A stretch of 64,000 nt of DNA, from assembly GCA_029834535.1 (NCBI GenBank), contig JAQMWT010000533.1, positions 248,001 through 312,000 on the forward strand. Reading direction: 5' to 3'. The notes beneath the pieces are model-generated. The model did no database searches, had not been told where the DNA came from, and saw only the letters and a list, made by a program, of their open reading frames with translations. Each line of letters starts with the position of its first letter. Position 1 is the first letter of the stretch. This DNA comes from Chrysophaeum taylorii (lineage: Eukaryota; Sar; Pelagophyceae; Pelagomonadales; Pelagomonadaceae). The position numbers and the translations under genes were made by a program. Shown one piece after another: positions 2,185 to 26,379 of the stretch.

Positions 2185-5015
2185 CCATCTTTGTTCCACG
2201 GGCCGCACACGCTTCGGGTGGGTCGAGGGCACCATTGTGCGGGCCAGCTCAAATGATGCGCAACTCGCTGGGGGTGGTCCGCTCCCCGGCTCCGCCGCTG
2301 CATCTGATTAAAAAGTCGTCGATCTTGCGTTCGCTGTCGGTTGGCCGGCCCCTGATATTACCAAGTTGCGGCGGGTATGCCACGAGGACGAGATTTTGTG
2401 GTCCACCTCCTTCCTAGCGGCGGACGGACATTTTTTTCATGGCGCATGTATTCCTCCTTCCGCGGTGGAGCGTGCTTGGTTCGCAGGGCGCTTAAAGACA
2501 TTACTCCATGTACATACTTTCGGTCTTGTTGGGCTCGATTGGGTCCATGGTCGCGCAATGGTGGGTGTCACCCGTGGTGACGTTTTCTTGTGCATGGTTG
2601 ACGGCCACCTGCGCATAATTGAGGGCAAGACACGGATGATGATAACGCGCTGCTTGTCTGTGATTTGATATTCCGGACAAACCACCGAGTGCTGTATCAA
2701 GACGCAGCTGGCTGGTAAATTGAAGAGGTTTGGTATGTGGGTCGTATCCACGGCTCACGGGCCGTGGCAGACACACCCACATCCACATTTGCGCTGGTGG
2801 CGACCAGTACCCCCTGACCCCGAAGGCTGTGCGACCGCTTCGTGTTCTTCCCTGTGATTCGTCTGTTGACTGGGAACCTAAAGCGTGGTTTGTCCAGAAG
2901 CCACGGCCATTGCGGTCTCTCGCGTCGGTACGCGTCGCCTTCCCGCGAGACGCTGCCGCCACGCTGGCGAGTTTCATCGGGAGCCTTTCTCTTTGCCGTT
3001 AAGCCCCGCTGCGATGCGCAACGAAGTTACTTGTTTCTGTGGCTGCGAGCCGACGTTGTTCTGTACTGAACCGTGGCCGCGGTGGCGTGTCATCATTGTC
3101 TTCCCCTTTCAATGCTTTAAATCCAGGCGTTGCTCCAAACAGTTCTCCTAAGCGGAGACACCAGACATCCCTTTCGGTTGCTCAAGGAAATCAGTCCACG
3201 CCCGTGACTCCCAAGTCATCAACAGTCCAACAGCAAACTAAACCGCAAGCAGCAAGGTCCGAGTACTTCCTGCTCAAGCACTGCAAATTTGATGCGATGG
3301 CGATGATGTCAGGGAACGTTATGTCACTTGGTACCCAGCCACCAAACTTTCTCCTACCACCACCTAAAGATCCTCAATGTTGGCATCAGTCCATTCAACA
3401 TCTGCTTACGGAAGCACAACAAACAAATTTTGTGGACAATGTCCAGTTCTTAAGTTCATTGCTATGTGTAAAAGCAAAGCGCATCCGGAATGCCCCCAAC
3501 ATATCGCCCAATGAAGGTATACGCTTCCATCGCTACCCGCCCATTAAAGGGGTTGTCAAAGTACATGTGGCGTGTACCAGGTGCTATAATAAAACCAGCA
3601 CGCCGGGTACACCCCTTGTACTCGTTATATGCACTGAAGATGAGCTTTAAACGAACAAAATCGCTAAAATCATCGAAGATCATCTCGCGTCTGAACAACA
3701 TGCCTCGCATTGTTTCGACGTACCGCGCCCCTTCTTTCTGTTGATTTGCGTCATGTGCAGCCTATCCCACCACGGGACAGCCTTAATTCGCAATAATCAA
3801 CAATCTTTTCATCTTTCATGTTATAATGATCCTGCTGCACACATGAGAGCTATCATTCTCCGCCTTGGAAAGTCTATTGCTATTAACAAGCTGCTCAAAG
3901 AGGCGCTCATGCATTGTATGACGAGCTTTAACGTCGATGCTTCTAAAATCATCGTCAACCCTGACGCTAATGCTCCTCTCTTGCTACAGCTGCCTTATAT
4001 TTCGAGTGTAAATCTTGACATTCTTGTAGCGGCTTGGTCCTTATTACAGTCCATTGAAAATAAAACCTGTGTAGTGACCAATCCTGATGAGCTACTTGAT
4101 ATGCTCATTGAAAGCTTCGTTAGTGATGTCTCTCACCAACTTAATGCTAATTCCTCCGAGTCGGTACCGCCAATGCTCACTTATTTTCGTCAACTTTCAC
4201 CTGAGCACCAATCAGCCTTTAAAAACGTGCTAGTCCAGGTTGGCTATCCCTCTGCTATAATTGATGCCTTTTCAGATAATATCTCATCTGAAGATGTAAC
4301 ACCAGCACCAATCGACAATCCATCCGCTGAACCCACGCCAGATAAAGCTAACGACAATATGGCTGAATCTTTACGCCAATTAAAAGAAGAGATTCAGTCT
4401 TTATCCTCACGTCTCACTAACAGTGAGCAGCAATTGATGGCACGAGATCAACAGCTATCGGTTGCGCTAAATACCTTAACCCAGATGCAAGAAGCTTACG
4501 ACACACTAAACGCTCAAGTGACCGAGAATATTAAACATGTGTCACTCTTAGATAACATACTCTCAAGTCTTCAGATGCATCAGGACAATATAATCCCAAC
4601 CTTCGCTGTCTTTGTCCACATAATCTCACGCTCGCTCATTTCGTCTATTGGACAGTTCCCTCCAAATACGTATGATGAGGCACAGCAAACTCTAATCGAC
4701 GACGCAGCTCACAACTTACACGCCGCTATGTCTGATGCACAGGATCATGTTATCCCTGCTTTGGATCTGCACGCTTTAACACCAGACGCTGCTATGTCCT
4801 TCCTCTCGTCTGTTATGGCACCCTTGGTCACCTTGAGTGATGCTATGACTACACATAATACTGCTAACGACATATCCTCCGATGATCACAACTCGTCCTC
4901 TCCAGAATTATAGGTACTGGACGATAATAGCGAGGATGAATTGGACCACACGTCTGATGTTGTGGATACCGATACCGCTTCTTTACGTAATATCACGACA
5001 CGCTCGACATCATAA
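2185..5015 (+). mobile_element. Fossil element, family A copy 1 (unknown class)
   Basis: This AT-richer tract differs in composition and codon use from the GC-rich host genes. It holds several forward reading frames, among them 2366-2668, 3039-3650 and the long frame entered separately. The middle frame contains a cysteine pair (ACTRC) followed by a PGTP motif. Related frames occur near 35.9 kb and 63.7 kb, so this is a multicopy family. It looks broken, with a few breaks. No reverse transcriptase, integrase or transposase can be recognised, so the class is open; a gag-like or capsid-like origin is possible. It ends shortly before the left arm of an inverted repeat. Confidence 0.45.
3753..4913 (+). 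CDS. Long open frame of fossil element family A, coiled-coil protein
   Basis: About 386 residues are open from the first ATG at 3753. I do not recognise the family. The first ~190 residues are mostly helical, the section after about 195 is acidic and Pro-rich, and residues ~200-270 give a clear coiled coil (heptads with Leu/Gln in LRQLKEEIQSLSSRL). The C-terminus is Asp/Ser-rich. Codon use is AT-rich, unlike the flanking host genes. It is probably a structural-type protein of an element, because short diverged relatives lie near 35.9 kb and 63.7 kb. The function is not known. Confidence 0.4.
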   Translation: MCSLSHHGTALIRNNQQSFHLSCYNDPAAHMRAIILRLGKSIAINKLLKEALMHCMTSFNVDASKIIVNPDANAPLLLQLPYISSVNLDILVAAWSLLQSIENKTCVVTNPDELLDMLIESFVSDVSHQLNANSSESVPPMLTYFRQLSPEHQSAFKNVLVQVGYPSAIIDAFSDNISSEDVTPAPIDNPSAEPTPDKANDNMAESLRQLKEEIQSLSSRLTNSEQQLMARDQQLSVALNTLTQMQEAYDTLNAQVTENIKHVSLLDNILSSLQMHQDNIIPTFAVFVHIISRSLISSIGQFPPNTYDEAQQTLIDDAAHNLHAAMSDAQDHVIPALDLHALTPDAAMSFLSSVMAPLVTLSDAMTTHNTANDISSDDHNSSSPEL

Positions 5016-5136
5016 TTAATCTGTCATGTTTTGTTGTTGTTTGTTCCATTGTTCGCTGTTCTCATGTACATTGCACAAGTTCCGCCTCAAGAACGTCTGA
5101 AATGCACAAACCATTCTTTCACACGCTGAGGGGGGG

Positions 5137-5539
5137 CAGAGAGCTACACTATTATGTGTACGACACTGGAACATTTCACTCCTTTCACACCTATCTCCGC
5201 AAGAGGGTTTTCTCTCCGTAATACGGCTTTCCCTCTTTCCTTCCTTACCCTTCCGCAATTACTTATTCATGACTATGAAGAATACAGTCTGAAGCTCTCT
5301 TCCAACATGGAGTAGGCCTCCAGGTGCGTACCGTCAGGTACGGGGTTTTCTGTTTAATTAACAGAGGCTTCGTTCCTCGTTGTCAGTGTAAACGCTTCTA
5401 TGGGACTTAATGTCCTTAAGGAGTTAGGGCCTAAATCCCTACCTTGCGTAGTAGCATGTGACAAGCGGAATGGCCTGTACACGCCTAAGACTGCACGCAG
5501 TCTCTACCATGTACCCGGAGAGGGTGAAATCTCTCCAGG
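5137..5539 (+). repeat. Left arm of ~400-bp inverted long repeat
   Basis: This segment matches the reverse complement of 8990-9393 along almost its whole length. Shared blocks include AGAGAGCTACACTA at the outer end, CGTATTACGGAGAGAAAACC (reverse-complement sense), TTAGGCCCTAACTCCTTAAG and GTACCCGGAGAGGGT near the inner end. It also holds a short hairpin-forming CGTACCGTCAGGTACG stretch near 5328. It is probably an LTR of the fossil element. Confidence 0.8.
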
Positions 5540-5757
5540 GACGGAAGCACTTCATTAGAATTGCCAAACCGTCTCCGAAGCATATGCGCAAGATTTTCAT
5601 CGCTCTTAACAAGAACTTTAACGTTAATGTTGTTTCGCAAGTCATTGGAGGCGCAAGCCAAGAATGCAGGAGTAGACAACCCGGAGCAAAGTAGTGTTGC
5701 AGTGGGTACGCGTGAGTTGGATGTTATGGTATGAAGCAAACTTGGGTTAAACTTGCG

Positions 5758-7326
5758 TCATACAGGGGGTGAGAAATGCTTGCGAACATAAGGCAACTGT
5801 GAATGCATGGACTCCAAAATGGTTTTAAGCCACGGGACGTAGATTACACGTTCTAGTAATTTGGAGTAGAGTTTTAGCATCTCACGTTGTTCGTTGAAAG
5901 CACTTAATTTAAACTGTAAGGAGCGAAGTTCCATCTTTCGAGCTTTAGCTTGCTGTAGCGAATAGATTGGGAACGTAGGTAAGAGGTTGTTTAGCCTAAA
6001 CAGAGTAATCTTGACGTTGTCATCAATCTTGCTCTGGATAGTTGACCGTCCTTTATATTCAACCCCATAAAGATGTACACCAAGATTATCTTCTCCCCAC
6101 TGAGTCATGTTGATGATGTGCAAATCAGGATCGTTGTGCTGATTCTGCTTAGGTAGGAAAAGTGCAACATCAAGCTTGACGTACCCAACGTTCGGATGCT
6201 TTGGGAGAGCGGGAATAACAGTTCTTATTGTCATTGCGTGGGTAATGCTTTGAGTGTCCGTAGCCGTCTGGATGGCGGGCGACAAGGATTTGGGCAATTT
6301 AACGATGTGTATTGGATCAGCATAACGTTTAAAGTTAACGACATGTTGTGAAGCACATGTGTCTGCATACCCAGGTGTAGTCATTAATGGTAAGTTGTAC
6401 TCATTGTACAACTTCAGCAGAGTTGCGCAACACGCATGTGTAGAGCTTTGACCGAAGACATATTGCGCCATGAAGCTTTGCGTTTGTTCGGAAGGTACAA
6501 CAACGAGTGCAAAACCATTGTCTAATTTCGGAAGCAGCCTAGGGGGCTCTGTGCCATCCTCGTTCTCTCCGTCATGTTGGTTATTGGAAAGCTCAGAGTT
6601 ATGAGAAGCTTCCCGTGCTTGACGACGAATGATAGCATTCCGTGCTTTAGCGTTTAAGTGCTGCAGTAATGGTTGAGGAATTTTGTCGATTTCTTCATCT
6701 TTTATAGAAAGAAAGGTATGAAACATCTTTTCCGTTTCAGCAGTCCCCGTCTGCTCCGCATCACTGAGGGACGCTGTAGGAGCAGATGTATCAACTTGAT
6801 CCTTTTCTTCTATGATGTGAGACTCTTTAGCTGTCTCTAGAAAGTTCGAGATTGTGCTGGACATTGTATCAACGCGTGATAGGTATAGGTGAACTTGAGT
6901 GGCTTCCTCAGGATCAAGAGTCTGCGTAGAAGCTTGATAAGCAGTGGTCCAGAAGGTACTTAGTAGGCTCTTCATTTTTTCTTGTACCACTTTAGAGTCG
7001 GTAGAAGGATTGGGATTCGCTTCCTGTAATTTACCAAACAGATGGCGAAGACGGTCAACTTGATAAGTAGCCCGATCCATTAATGACATATTAGAGCGAG
7101 AGTTGCGGTTAGTGGACTGTGAATAAACAGGACGGTCGAAACTAGTGCCTTTAACATTATAATTTGAAGGTGGACGATAGTAAGACGTGCCCCGAGGTGA
7201 GATTGTAGACGCTTTATCTTTAGCGTTACGCAGCTTACGAGCGTTAAAACCAGATTGTCCAGCGACTGTTGCTAACAATGAGTAGGCATTGTTTAGCGAG
7301 TCGTGGGACTGGTGAGTGGTATCCAT
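5758..7326 (-). CDS. Fossil element frame with copia-like protease motif
   Basis: A 522-residue frame with an ATG start. The N-terminal half is polar and low in hydrophobics, as expected of a gag C-terminus, with an acidic, Asn/Ser-rich linker. Around residues 320-330 a DTCASQHVV stretch resembles the DSGAS-H-type active-site motif of Ty1/copia aspartic proteases, and the following ~150 residues are beta-strand-rich as in that family. No later polyprotein domains follow. It belongs with the two frames upstream (8506-7479). Confidence 0.5.
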   Translation of the reverse strand: MDTTHQSHDSLNNAYSLLATVAGQSGFNARKLRNAKDKASTISPRGTSYYRPPSNYNVKGTSFDRPVYSQSTNRNSRSNMSLMDRATYQVDRLRHLFGKLQEANPNPSTDSKVVQEKMKSLLSTFWTTAYQASTQTLDPEEATQVHLYLSRVDTMSSTISNFLETAKESHIIEEKDQVDTSAPTASLSDAEQTGTAETEKMFHTFLSIKDEEIDKIPQPLLQHLNAKARNAIIRRQAREASHNSELSNNQHDGENEDGTEPPRLLPKLDNGFALVVVPSEQTQSFMAQYVFGQSSTHACCATLLKLYNEYNLPLMTTPGYADTCASQHVVNFKRYADPIHIVKLPKSLSPAIQTATDTQSITHAMTIRTVIPALPKHPNVGYVKLDVALFLPKQNQHNDPDLHIINMTQWGEDNLGVHLYGVEYKGRSTIQSKIDDNVKITLFRLNNLLPTFPIYSLQQAKARKMELRSLQFKLSAFNEQREMLKLYSKLLERVIYVPWLKTILESMHSQLPYVRKHFSPPV

Positions 7327-22130: not shown

Positions 22131-24381
22131 TTACCACGTGTAGATGCCTCCGCGCTTTACGAACATGTCGTAGTCGAAGCCAGCTTGCTCGAAGACCTCG
22201 GCAGGATCATCGAGGATTGAGATCTCGCGAGGCATCTTAGATCCATCGCTGCAGTCTAGCCAGCGCATTTTTTCATCGAGCAAGAGGTAACTTGCTTGCA
22301 TTTCGTTGTTAGTCTCCGGCACGAGCGAGGCTTGGGCGCTGTGGCGATCGACGAACGCAGCAAACTGGTCAGGCGAGACGACGAGGGGACGCGCATCGCG
22401 AAGGTCACCGCCGATGCCGCCGTTCTCCCCGTCCAAGACGAGGCATTGGAAGACTTTCCAGCGAAACGGGTCGAGCCGCGTAACGGGCGCATTCATATCT
22501 TCTTCGTGATTCAGCGAGGTGACGACGGTGTTCAACTTAAACTTGATATCTTGCTGCGAGACCCAGTCTCTCACGCGAAAGATCTGCTCGAGATGCTCGA
22601 TGCCTGCGAGACCCGGAGCCGCGCGGCCGAGCCGGGCGTTGATGTCGGGATCAAACGAGTCGCAGCTGATCCCGAGGATGTCAACAAACTTCCCATACTC
22701 GCGCATCCAGTGTTTCGAGATTAACGAGCCTGGAATAGGCAATGCAGACAAAAATTTGGGGTCATCACGAACGCACCGTTGGAGATGATGGCCGTCGAGA
22801 CGGCGAGCTCGGTCGATGCGAATCGAAGGAGCTCGCCTAGAAATGTTGGCTCGAGAAACGGCTCGCCGCCCGCGATGTTGAGCTTTTCCATGCCAGCCGC
22901 CTCGAGCAAGCTCAGGCCGCGTTTGGCGTCTTCCAAAGACAGCATCTGGGACGTTTTGGCCGTGTGGAAGCAGAACTTGCATCCCATGTTGCAGCGGCGC
23001 GAGATGAAGTAGTTCACAGAAACTGGTGCGCGTCGCGGCGTCGACGCGAGCGCCTCGACGAAGTGAGAACCGAAGAGCCGCTTCATGAGCGCCCACCACG
23101 CGATCAACCTGCCGAAAAAAAAGGTCTTGTTGCTCCTGAAGTGGGATCGTTGCGGGCTGTCAGTCTTTTCGTTTCGGAGGGGATGAGCAGGGCCATGCTT
23201 CAGGCGTCGACACGAGCGCATGATTTCGTCGTCGACAGGCGCCGAGTCAGGCGACCAATAGCGCCAAAGGAATCGCGGTGCCATAAGCGTGCCAAGCGAC
23301 AGCAACTTATCCAGCCTCCAGCCGAGCGACACCGAGAGCCAGTTCATCGACAGCCCGACGACGGGTTCGCCAGGCGTGTCGGCTTCGTTCTGAACTTCGT
23401 GGAACCACCAGGGTGGCACATAGAGGAGATCCTGCGTTTTGGCGTTGGAAGTTCGTCGCGTCTAAATTGAGGACAAATCGCACTCACTCCAGGTTCGATG
23501 GTGATGACGGCCCGGTCGGCGCGGTCGTAGGCGGGAAACCGAGACGCGCTTCTTTCTCGGTCGTGGTCATTCACAACGCTCATGTAGGCAACGTTCGCTC
23601 TTGGGAGGACGTAGAGCTCGGGCGCGGCCGACGGCGGCCACAGATGCCACTTTTTACGACCTTGGAGCTGCAAATAGAGGTTCACCGAGGGATCGGCGTG
23701 GCAGCGCGTGAACGTTTTCCTGTTGCCGATAAAGAGGAGAGCAGCGAGTTCCCCCCACTCGGCGCCCTCAGTACCACGCAACTCGTCGATGCGATCAGTG
23801 TCAACGCAGGCTCGGAGCAGCGCGCGGCCTTGTTCTTCGTCGAACACCTCGTGCACGGACTTGGCGTTGACCGTAGATCCAGTGGCGATGCGGTCGACGA
23901 GCTCGCCCAGCTCAATCTCCTCCTCCACGACACCCCTCGACTCGTACGAGTGCACGAGAACCTTTGTGGTACACGCCTCCGCTGAAAAGCGCTCGAGAGT
24001 GATGGTCTCTGGCTGCCACTTTCGAATCACAAACGGTGCGTCGGCGTCGCGGATGAGTTTCTTGATGACGCGAGAATCAGTCGACAACGGAACCTCGCCT
24101 ACCGCGAGGCGGTCGCCCCGGCCGCGACCAGCGTTTTCTCCGAGAAAAAACATCACGCGTGTGCACGCGACGCCCTGAAACAGGACGAGCAGACTCCCCA
24201 TCACGACGACAACAACGACCGTGGTCGTAAATGTCGGGGCGTAAATGACAACACCGGCGAGGGAGCCGATAGCGATGCGTTTGAGGCCAAGGATGTGCAG
24301 AAGCAACATTGCGCCCCACAAGACCTTGGCCGAACGCGTCTTTACGGCGTTTAAAACGCTTCGTGGGCAGACGACTGTCAT
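22131..24381 (-). CDS. RSAD2: JmjC/cupin 2OG-oxygenase fused to viperin (radical-SAM, RSAD2-like)
   Basis: Three exons (24381-23488, 23431-22777, 22729-22131) with introns of 56 nt (23432-23487, GTGAGT..CAG) and 47 nt (22730-22776, GTGCGT..CAG) give exactly 715 codons plus stop. Residues ~22-80 hold two hydrophobic segments (membrane anchor). Residues ~95-335 are a JmjC/cupin-8 domain with the Fe ligands H228, D230 (RCHADPSVN) and H309 (PPWWFHEV). Residues ~430-715 are a viperin domain: CNMGCKFC (445-452, CX3CX2C for the 4Fe-4S cluster and SAM), GGEPFLEP, ISCDSFDPDIN, RWKVFQCL, VPETNNEM and KRGGIYTW at the end. Animal viperin turns CTP into chain-terminating ddhCTP. No stop separates the domains; a weaker 105-nt in-frame intron (23109-23213) is possible but would not break the fusion. 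Start: the first ATG, since the longer frame begins at TTG. Confidence 0.85.
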
Positions 24382-24774: not shown

Positions 24775-26379
24775 ATGAAGTTGGTCGTCGCGGTCGTTGG
24801 GGCCCATTGCTGCGGCAAGACGACGTTGGCGAGGAAGTTCGCCGCTCAAACCGGCGCGCGTTTCGATCAAGAGCTCGGTGAGAAGTTGGCAGAAGAGGCC
24901 GGCACTGCGGCTGGTGTCGACGACGAAACTGTTCTAGCGCGCGAAACGGAGCGCGATCGCGACGATGTCTGCTTGCGCGTGGTGGAGACATGGCATACAG
25001 GAAATTTCGGGTGGCACAAGTTGCGGCGGGATCGCGGCCTCGCAGATGGACACGACTTGGAAGCGCGCACGCGACGAGCGGTTCGCGAGGTCGCGAGAGA
25101 CCACAAGGTAGTCTTCTTTGTACTTCGCTGCTCGGACCAGGAGCGGCGGAAGCGGCGCGAAAAATCCGGCAGGACGCGGTTACCGCCGTTCGACAACATG
25201 GATGAGGAGGAAATGTTCGAGGCAACGTTTCGCGTCGGCGAGGTAGCGATCGAAGAAGTGCGCCAACTCGTGGAAACCCAAACGGCCGAAAACCGGGCTG
25301 GTATGATAGTGGTGGACGTCTCGACCGACGGCGAGATCGAAGACATCGTCGACATCATGCATGCCGAGCTGCTGAAAGCGCTCGCGCGCGACGACTTCGT
25401 CGACGCGGAGCGTCTCTCGGGCTCGATGCGCTCGGCACGCGTCGCGCTCGAGAGCGCCATCGACGCCGTCCCGGGGCTGCGCGAGTTGCTGGCGAGGCAC
25501 AAGTTTCCGGCGGTACAACGTCGAATCCCGGGAAGCGGTGTTGTTCCTGACGGCGCGAGCGAGTCGACGATCGTGAAAGAGGTGGCCGATGCGCTCTGCG
25601 TGACGTCGACGTCGACGTCGAGCCCCCCTCTGGCACCACTCCGCGCGTTCGTCGACGCCGTATCATGCAAAGATCTGGAGGGCGCGTTCTACATCCCCGA
25701 GACACTACGTCGTATTTGCCCCACCAAAAAAGAACAAACGACAAGCCTTGTACGGCGCGCGCTCGACGCCACCGTCGACCATGGCTTTGCCGTCGTGTAT
25801 CGTGGGCTCGTGTCGACGGCGGCGTGCGATGCAATCGTGGGCGAACTCGAGGCTGCGCGTCGCGGCGAGCTCGAGAAGATAACCGGGCTCAACCGCCACA
25901 AGTGGAAGAATTTCAACGAGCCCAAAACGTGCTCGAACGCAAAGATCGAGCTCACTTTTGTTAAGAGCGCGGTGGCTCGCCAAAGGAGAGTTGAGGTGCA
26001 CGCGGCGCTGGCCAAGAGAACCGGTCGAGAGGAGTGGGCCCGACCTAACCCCCCAAGCAAGGAAGATCACGTCACGGTGTTTGCGTACGTCGAGGGCGCC
26101 GAGCTTCGGCCCCACCGCGACAAAGACATAAGCGACGCGAAGGCGCTCACCGCCGTCGTGGTCGTCGGAGATGAGTTTGAAGAGGGAGCGTTCTACGTCA
26201 ATAAAGATGCGGAGGTCGACCCCAGCACAGGCCACGCCACCGCCGAAAGTAGAGCCCGACGCCAGCGGTTCCCCGACCTTCGACGAGGGGATGCCGTGGT
26301 CTTCTGTAACGACAAGACGGTGCACGGCGTGGAACGCGTCGCGAAAGGACGACGGATCTCGGCATCGTTCCGCGTATGA
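24775..26379 (+). CDS. P-loop nucleotide/nucleoside-kinase-like domain fused to 2OG-Fe(II) oxygenase
   Basis: A 534-residue protein from an ATG at 24775. Residues 1-200 form a P-loop kinase-like domain: GAHCCGKTT (9-17, Walker A), VFFVLRCSDQERRKRREKSG (~113-133, Walker-B-like strand and Arg-rich lid), similar in layout to small nucleotide/nucleoside kinases and the AAA_28/NadR group. Residues ~310-534 form a 2OG-Fe(II) dioxygenase: LRPHRDKD (H447, D449), GDAVVFCNDKTVH (H517) and GRRISASFRV, whose Arg binds 2-oxoglutarate. The gap contains a helical linker. Specificity is unknown. It is divergent from the viperin fusion, recalling the CMPK2-RSAD2 pair of vertebrates and the kinase beside prokaryotic viperins; a role in supplying or modifying the nucleotide is inference. 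Confidence 0.78.
   Translation: MKLVVAVVGAHCCGKTTLARKFAAQTGARFDQELGEKLAEEAGTAAGVDDETVLARETERDRDDVCLRVVETWHTGNFGWHKLRRDRGLADGHDLEARTRRAVREVARDHKVVFFVLRCSDQERRKRREKSGRTRLPPFDNMDEEEMFEATFRVGEVAIEEVRQLVETQTAENRAGMIVVDVSTDGEIEDIVDIMHAELLKALARDDFVDAERLSGSMRSARVALESAIDAVPGLRELLARHKFPAVQRRIPGSGVVPDGASESTIVKEVADALCVTSTSTSSPPLAPLRAFVDAVSCKDLEGAFYIPETLRRICPTKKEQTTSLVRRALDATVDHGFAVVYRGLVSTAACDAIVGELEAARRGELEKITGLNRHKWKNFNEPKTCSNAKIELTFVKSAVARQRRVEVHAALAKRTGREEWARPNPPSKEDHVTVFAYVEGAELRPHRDKDISDAKALTAVVVVGDEFEEGAFYVNKDAEVDPSTGHATAESRARRQRFPDLRRGDAVVFCNDKTVHGVERVAKGRRISASFRV

Follow-up and report, generated by a model that had tools for sequence, protein, structure and literature searches.

Does the pelagophyte Chrysophaeum taylorii make a viperin that is joined to an oxygenase and, if so, what might such a protein do? 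The question is raised by a gene on the minus strand (24381-22131) of a 64,000 nucleotide stretch of genomic DNA, here called the window, which is the part of contig C533 between positions 248001 and 312000; the assembly totals 70.8 Mb. Viperin offers one of the clearest examples of a defence that different domains of life have in common. A first-pass annotation of the window had described the gene product as one protein with a JmjC oxygenase followed by a viperin. Our comparisons bear this out: a JmjC-viperin fusion in a single protein is strongly supported by the same domain order and a conserved linker in Balamuthia and several other sequences. The protein looks like a real form of an ancient immune enzyme, and perhaps one that is undescribed.

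The gene and its two domains

Splicing of the window sequence gave three exons separated by two short GT-AG introns. The spliced coding sequence is 2148 nt long, with 715 codons followed by a TAA stop, and the open frame proposed earlier was thus reproduced. The best protein match, GenBank CTAYLR_002863, agrees with the model at every residue of codons 25-715. Its deposited start codon is M25 (24309). Aligned residues of three relatives described below (P0002, P0003 and P0004) extend upstream of M25, with weak similarity. The C. taylorii gene set is described as built from long-read contigs, with annotation using RNA-seq and homology evidence (PMC10366177). The parts of the gene are listed here.

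23488..24381, minus strand: exon 1, carrying the start codon, the hydrophobic N-terminus and the greater part of the JmjC domain (with H228, D230, N234 and K243)
23432..23487, minus strand: intron 1, 56 nt, GTGAGT..GCAG; homologues read through it and the deposited protein agrees
22777..23431, minus strand: exon 2, the seam exon, with the end of the JmjC domain (H309), the conserved linker and the start of viperin (CxxxCxxC)
22730..22776, minus strand: intron 2, 47 nt, GTGCGT..CCAG; the deposited protein agrees
22131..22729, minus strand: exon 3, with the remaining viperin and the TAA stop right after the terminal Trp
23336..24120, minus strand: JmjC/Cupin_8 domain, approximately residues 88-330, from Pfam, sequence and fold matches; the span includes intron 1
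22131..23035, minus strand: viperin domain, residues 431-715, from NCBIfam models, sequence and fold; the span includes intron 2
22970..22993, minus strand: CxxxCxxC of the radical-SAM cluster (C445, C449 and C452), sequence CNMGCKFC

The oxygenase domain was complete, as annotated, with the iron triad HxD..H formed by H228, D230 and H309. Pfam Cupin_8 matched residues 151-315 (E 6e-26; 92.2 bits, cut-off 27.4) and JmjC_2 also passed its cut-off (30.8 bits, cut-off 22). The PF02373 JmjC model fell just short (23.2 bits, cut-off 24; P0003 scores 31.4). Hence, the name JmjC rests on Cupin_8, JmjC_2 and the fold. By sequence, the closest JmjC hydroxylase is FIH, the HIF asparaginyl hydroxylase; by fold, FIH ties with TYW5, JMJD5 and JMJD7, and Foldseek places JMJD7 top among JmjC chains. 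All four resemble the fusion in having the JmjC fold and HxD..H, and the Asn and Lys of the fusion also align with FIH. Identity to the JmjC part of the fusion is approximately 17-21%, and we know of none of the four being fused to a radical-SAM enzyme. Judged from these alignments, the domain is of the FIH/JMJD/TYW5 kind, with the predicted Fe(II) and 2-oxoglutarate (2OG) ligands in place.

The viperin domain was likewise complete, and every motif quoted in the first-pass annotation was present. NCBIfam viperin models cover residues 431-715, and Pfam Radical_SAM matches residues 440-553 (E 8e-14). NF038283 scored 221.4 bits against a cut-off of 180 (P0002, P0004, P0081 and P0010 score 215-255). 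TIGR04278 gave E 1e-99 and 333.6 bits, under its cut-off of 450, with the Balamuthia fusion at 430.7; this stricter model looks tuned to a subset of viperins, probably of animal type. The TIGR04278 cut-off is not family-defining, so we assigned the domain by NF038283, by its place in the tree and by its fold. The mouse (6q2p) and Trichoderma virens viperins (RSAD2/SAND) have approximately 50% identity to it, a near-identical predicted fold and the same CxxxCxxC. Both match the viperin part only, whereas the C. taylorii protein adds an N-terminal oxygenase. The chain ends at the Trp of GGIYTW (window 22131-22140), and P0002 ends three residues past its Trp. The C-termini of P0004, P0081 and P0010 are LDW or LAW. 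Animal viperins end in LDW or LAW, with a role in iron-sulfur loading.

Recurrence of the fusion and the seam

Two protein searches returned 159 distinct proteins, and statements on relatives refer to the matches listed. The first-pass annotation had proposed looking for the same architecture in other proteomes, and it proved not to be private to C. taylorii: it was found, whole or partial, in seven of the 159 proteins, C. taylorii included. A profile of the JmjC part and linker, built from six fusions, matched eight of the 159 at E < 1e-10 (P0001, P0002, P0003, P0004, P0081, P0154, P0010 and P0159). Among these, P0004 is the fusion of the amoebozoan Balamuthia mandrillaris. P0081, a marine transcript, is listed from JGI and MMETSP under a transcript name marked type complete, and we take it as transcript evidence for the fusion in another organism. 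P0003 stops inside viperin. In P0154 the JmjC part, the linker and the first residues of viperin are followed by what looks like an unspliced intron; P0010 also seems to retain one, within viperin. By eye, the two introns lie at or beside the same codon, inside CxxxCxxC, which suggests an intron position common to P0154 and P0010 and missing in C. taylorii. Among the matches listed, the sole unfused close relative of the JmjC part was P0159, and the match was weak. A shared-word search that started from the JmjC part of Balamuthia gave only two fusions and added no proteins; it missed P0002, P0003, P0010 and P0081. Such a search overlooks true relatives.

Two further features lie between the domains.

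23201..23236, minus strand: linker motif VDDEIMRSCRRL, residues 364-375, common to Balamuthia, with altered forms in other fusions
23048..23122, minus strand: hydrophobic or amphipathic seam stretch, residues 402-426, recognised by eye; it contains M414 (23086)

Over the 55 positions that follow the JmjC domain (P0001 residues 311-365), the C. taylorii and Balamuthia proteins are 49% identical, and VDDEIMRSCRRL occurs in both. Exon 2 covers both domains: H309, the last JmjC iron ligand, and C445, C449 and C452 of viperin lie in a single 218-codon open frame. This is modest evidence on its own, because 21 of 20,000 letter shuffles of the exon were also open. The reality of the predicted fusion is settled by its homologues, and not by the open exon.

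The first-pass annotation had said of the seam that it holds no stop and no start better than the JmjC N-terminus. The first part stands, as exon 2 is open throughout. For the second, an in-frame ATG, M414 at 23086, lies within the seam, and the deposited start is M25. Internal initiation at M414 could possibly yield a separate short viperin. The same codon might start a lone viperin in a two-gene arrangement, and a reading in which two genes or an assembly join only mimic a fusion can draw on it. However, the fusion recurs in other data sets with its linker conserved, the P0081 transcript name is marked complete and exon 2 spans both domains; we regard that reading as barely credible. An assembly join of two loci was specifically considered and ruled out by the independent relatives in other data sets, and an assembly error is very unlikely on these comparisons.

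Several unfused viperins near the fusions (P0082, P0084, P0103, P0110, P0091 and P0006) have a hydrophobic start followed by QAF, EAF, GFAP, AAW or ASF. By eye, these N-termini resemble the bipartite signals that direct ochrophyte proteins to the plastid.

What the joined enzymes may do

Viperins are described as converting cytidine or uridine triphosphate (CTP or UTP) to 3'-deoxy-3',4'-didehydro (ddh) nucleotides that end RNA chains (PMC10732462, PMC9642334). The viperin domain is conserved here, so it should make ddh-nucleotides too. We favour, tentatively and at a little short of an even chance, a membrane-anchored protein of two enzymes, in which a ddh-nucleotide-making viperin is accompanied by a working 2OG oxygenase of the same pathway, most likely a protein hydroxylase. 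The N-terminus would keep the protein on a membrane. A CMPK2-like kinase of the same genome would feed substrate to the viperin domain, which would dehydrate CTP or UTP, and the resulting ddh-nucleotide would stop the synthesis of viral RNA. The JmjC oxygenase would hydroxylate a protein (viperin, a binding partner or one encoded by the virus), and antiviral output would thereby be tied to oxygen, iron and 2OG. Protein hydroxylation is preferred because most JmjC relatives of known function hydroxylate proteins. The arrangement would join an oxygen-using enzyme to an iron-sulfur enzyme of the radical-SAM kind, which is usually oxygen-sensitive. A conserved oxygenase partner is a testable lead on viperin regulation or on new product chemistry.

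Other fused viperins bear on what the partner does. The viperin-kinase fusions P0015, P0031, P0034, P0036 and P0044 (thymidylate-kinase-family, CMPK2-like) also carry a second enzyme in the viperin chain, but there the partner is a nucleotide kinase and in C. taylorii it is an oxygenase. In the tree, P0015, with its kinase C-terminal, lies near the JmjC fusions; P0031, P0034, P0036, P0038 and P0055 lie near animal viperins. A pyrophosphatase-viperin (P0070) and a CYTH-viperin (P0157) resemble the JmjC fusion in having the partner N-terminal, but the partner differs and they belong to another eukaryotic viperin branch. P0075 looks like P0157 by eye; no CYTH match was reported for P0075.

Since these other partners handle nucleotides or phosphate, the chief rival is that the JmjC domain oxidises (e.g. 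hydroxylates) the ddh-nucleotide of viperin, giving a new antiviral small molecule. The thymidylate-kinase-family (PF02223), inorganic pyrophosphatase (P0070) and CYTH (P0157) partners fit such a role, and the nearest folds of the JmjC part include TYW5, which acts on tRNA, and the halogenase OocPQ. Yet in mammals ddhCTP itself is reported to block the synthesis of RNA (PMC10732462), and no sequence feature of a nucleotide pocket was found in the JmjC part, although no search aimed at one was made; we consider product oxidation unlikely, if worth keeping in sight. A more specific form, in which the fusions make up a distinct eukaryotic viperin branch, spanning at least Stramenopiles and Amoebozoa, with oxygenase and dehydratase acting in series to give an oxidised ddh-nucleotide, is a long shot. 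If true, it would mean an antiviral small molecule of a new kind, whose production would require both oxygen and 2OG.

The oxygenase could instead have RNA or some other macromolecule as its hydroxylation target, at the same site on the membrane and independently of the nucleotide chemistry. The sole tie to RNA is the tied fold match with TYW5, and Foldseek puts JMJD7 first; we find such a role very doubtful. Alternatively, the JmjC part could serve viperin chiefly as a scaffold or for dimerisation, with catalysis incidental. At the FIH-equivalent positions, P0010 has a JmjC-like region in which none of H, D, N, K and H is kept, as a scaffold would allow. However, all five are kept in six of the seven divergent fusions, and a scaffold role seems distinctly improbable.

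Several points count against our preferred reading, of an anchored viperin with a protein hydroxylase. P0010 retains the architecture without the five ligands, so that some lineages may have given up catalysis. By fold, the JmjC domain matches protein hydroxylases and TYW5, which hydroxylates tRNA, equally well, and its substrate need not be a protein. Membrane anchoring is predicted from hydropathy, with hydrophobic stretches within residues 20-73. Other pairs are less alike in the linker (identity 36% for P0001-P0081, 14% for P0001-P0010 and 33% for P0003-P0004). The predicted structure of the 691-aa form (predicted template modelling score 0.53) does not fix the mutual orientation of the two domains; residues 347-380 and 396-406 fall below 50 in predicted local distance difference test score (pLDDT). 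A second structure model (first row P0154, eight sequences) was poor, at pLDDT 55, and was unused.

The first-pass annotation knew of no JmjC-viperin fusion. Literature searches, partial in coverage, found no published description of a JmjC-viperin or cupin-viperin fusion, in line with that statement, and the architecture is probably undescribed so far. The viperin partner named in one essay is the nucleotide kinase CMPK2 (PMC11249213). Fusions in distant protists, together with the pyrophosphatase and CYTH partners, suggest that joins of viperin to other enzymes have arisen more often than the descriptions we found would indicate.

Origin and genome surroundings

The first-pass annotation had also proposed comparing the viperin clade. 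In a quick tree of 104 rows, a branch of 87 rows (Shimodaira-Hasegawa-like approximate likelihood ratio test 99) holds all six fusions that have a viperin part, so that they group with eukaryotic viperins, apart from 16 prokaryotic rows; P0158 falls outside the 87-row branch. In a tree of 56 rows, the six fusions need three changes and form a single clade in 0% of 200 bootstrap trees. Forcing them into one clade was not rejected (approximately unbiased test, p 0.4). Unfused viperins lie among the fusions in this tree, including P0009 of the diatom Pseudo-nitzschia. The linker motif is common to two supergroups and hence argues for one old fusion event. Both a single fusion that was lost again in some lineages and a fusion transferred from one lineage to another would fit.

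A prokaryotic origin of the fusion was considered and rejected, as the JmjC part was found in none of the 65 prokaryotic or viral loci examined. In at least 62 prokaryotic loci that encode a relative, the match to the query begins no earlier than residue 368. The JmjC and linker profile was run over 1834 frames from these 62 loci and three viral ones, with a single match at E <= 1 (E 0.31). Three IMG/VR scans found no viral fusion and gave nothing that encodes the JmjC part. The IMG/VR locus L019 has, by eye, a radical-SAM-like frame; the contig L021 has a viperin-like radical-SAM gene (4974-5909, plus strand) near two frames that resemble integrases by eye.

Within C. taylorii, no second viperin was seen among the 12 matches listed; the three strong ones are exons of the fusion gene. 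The same contig carries, approximately 254 kb from the fusion, a kinase that we take to be CMPK2-like from its matches to the viperin-kinase fusions (L086, C533:15779-16162, in a 590-codon frame). It is 31-40% identical to the kinase parts of the five viperin-kinase fusions (best E 1e-26), which the genome's other thymidylate-kinase-family gene matches much less well.

A divergent neighbour (24775-26379, plus strand) has its start codon 394 bp from that of the fusion. It was single copy in the genome search, with no PDB match under E 0.1. In its product, a P-loop kinase-like domain (AAA_18) precedes a 2OG-FeII_Oxy_3-like domain whose score is just below cut-off.
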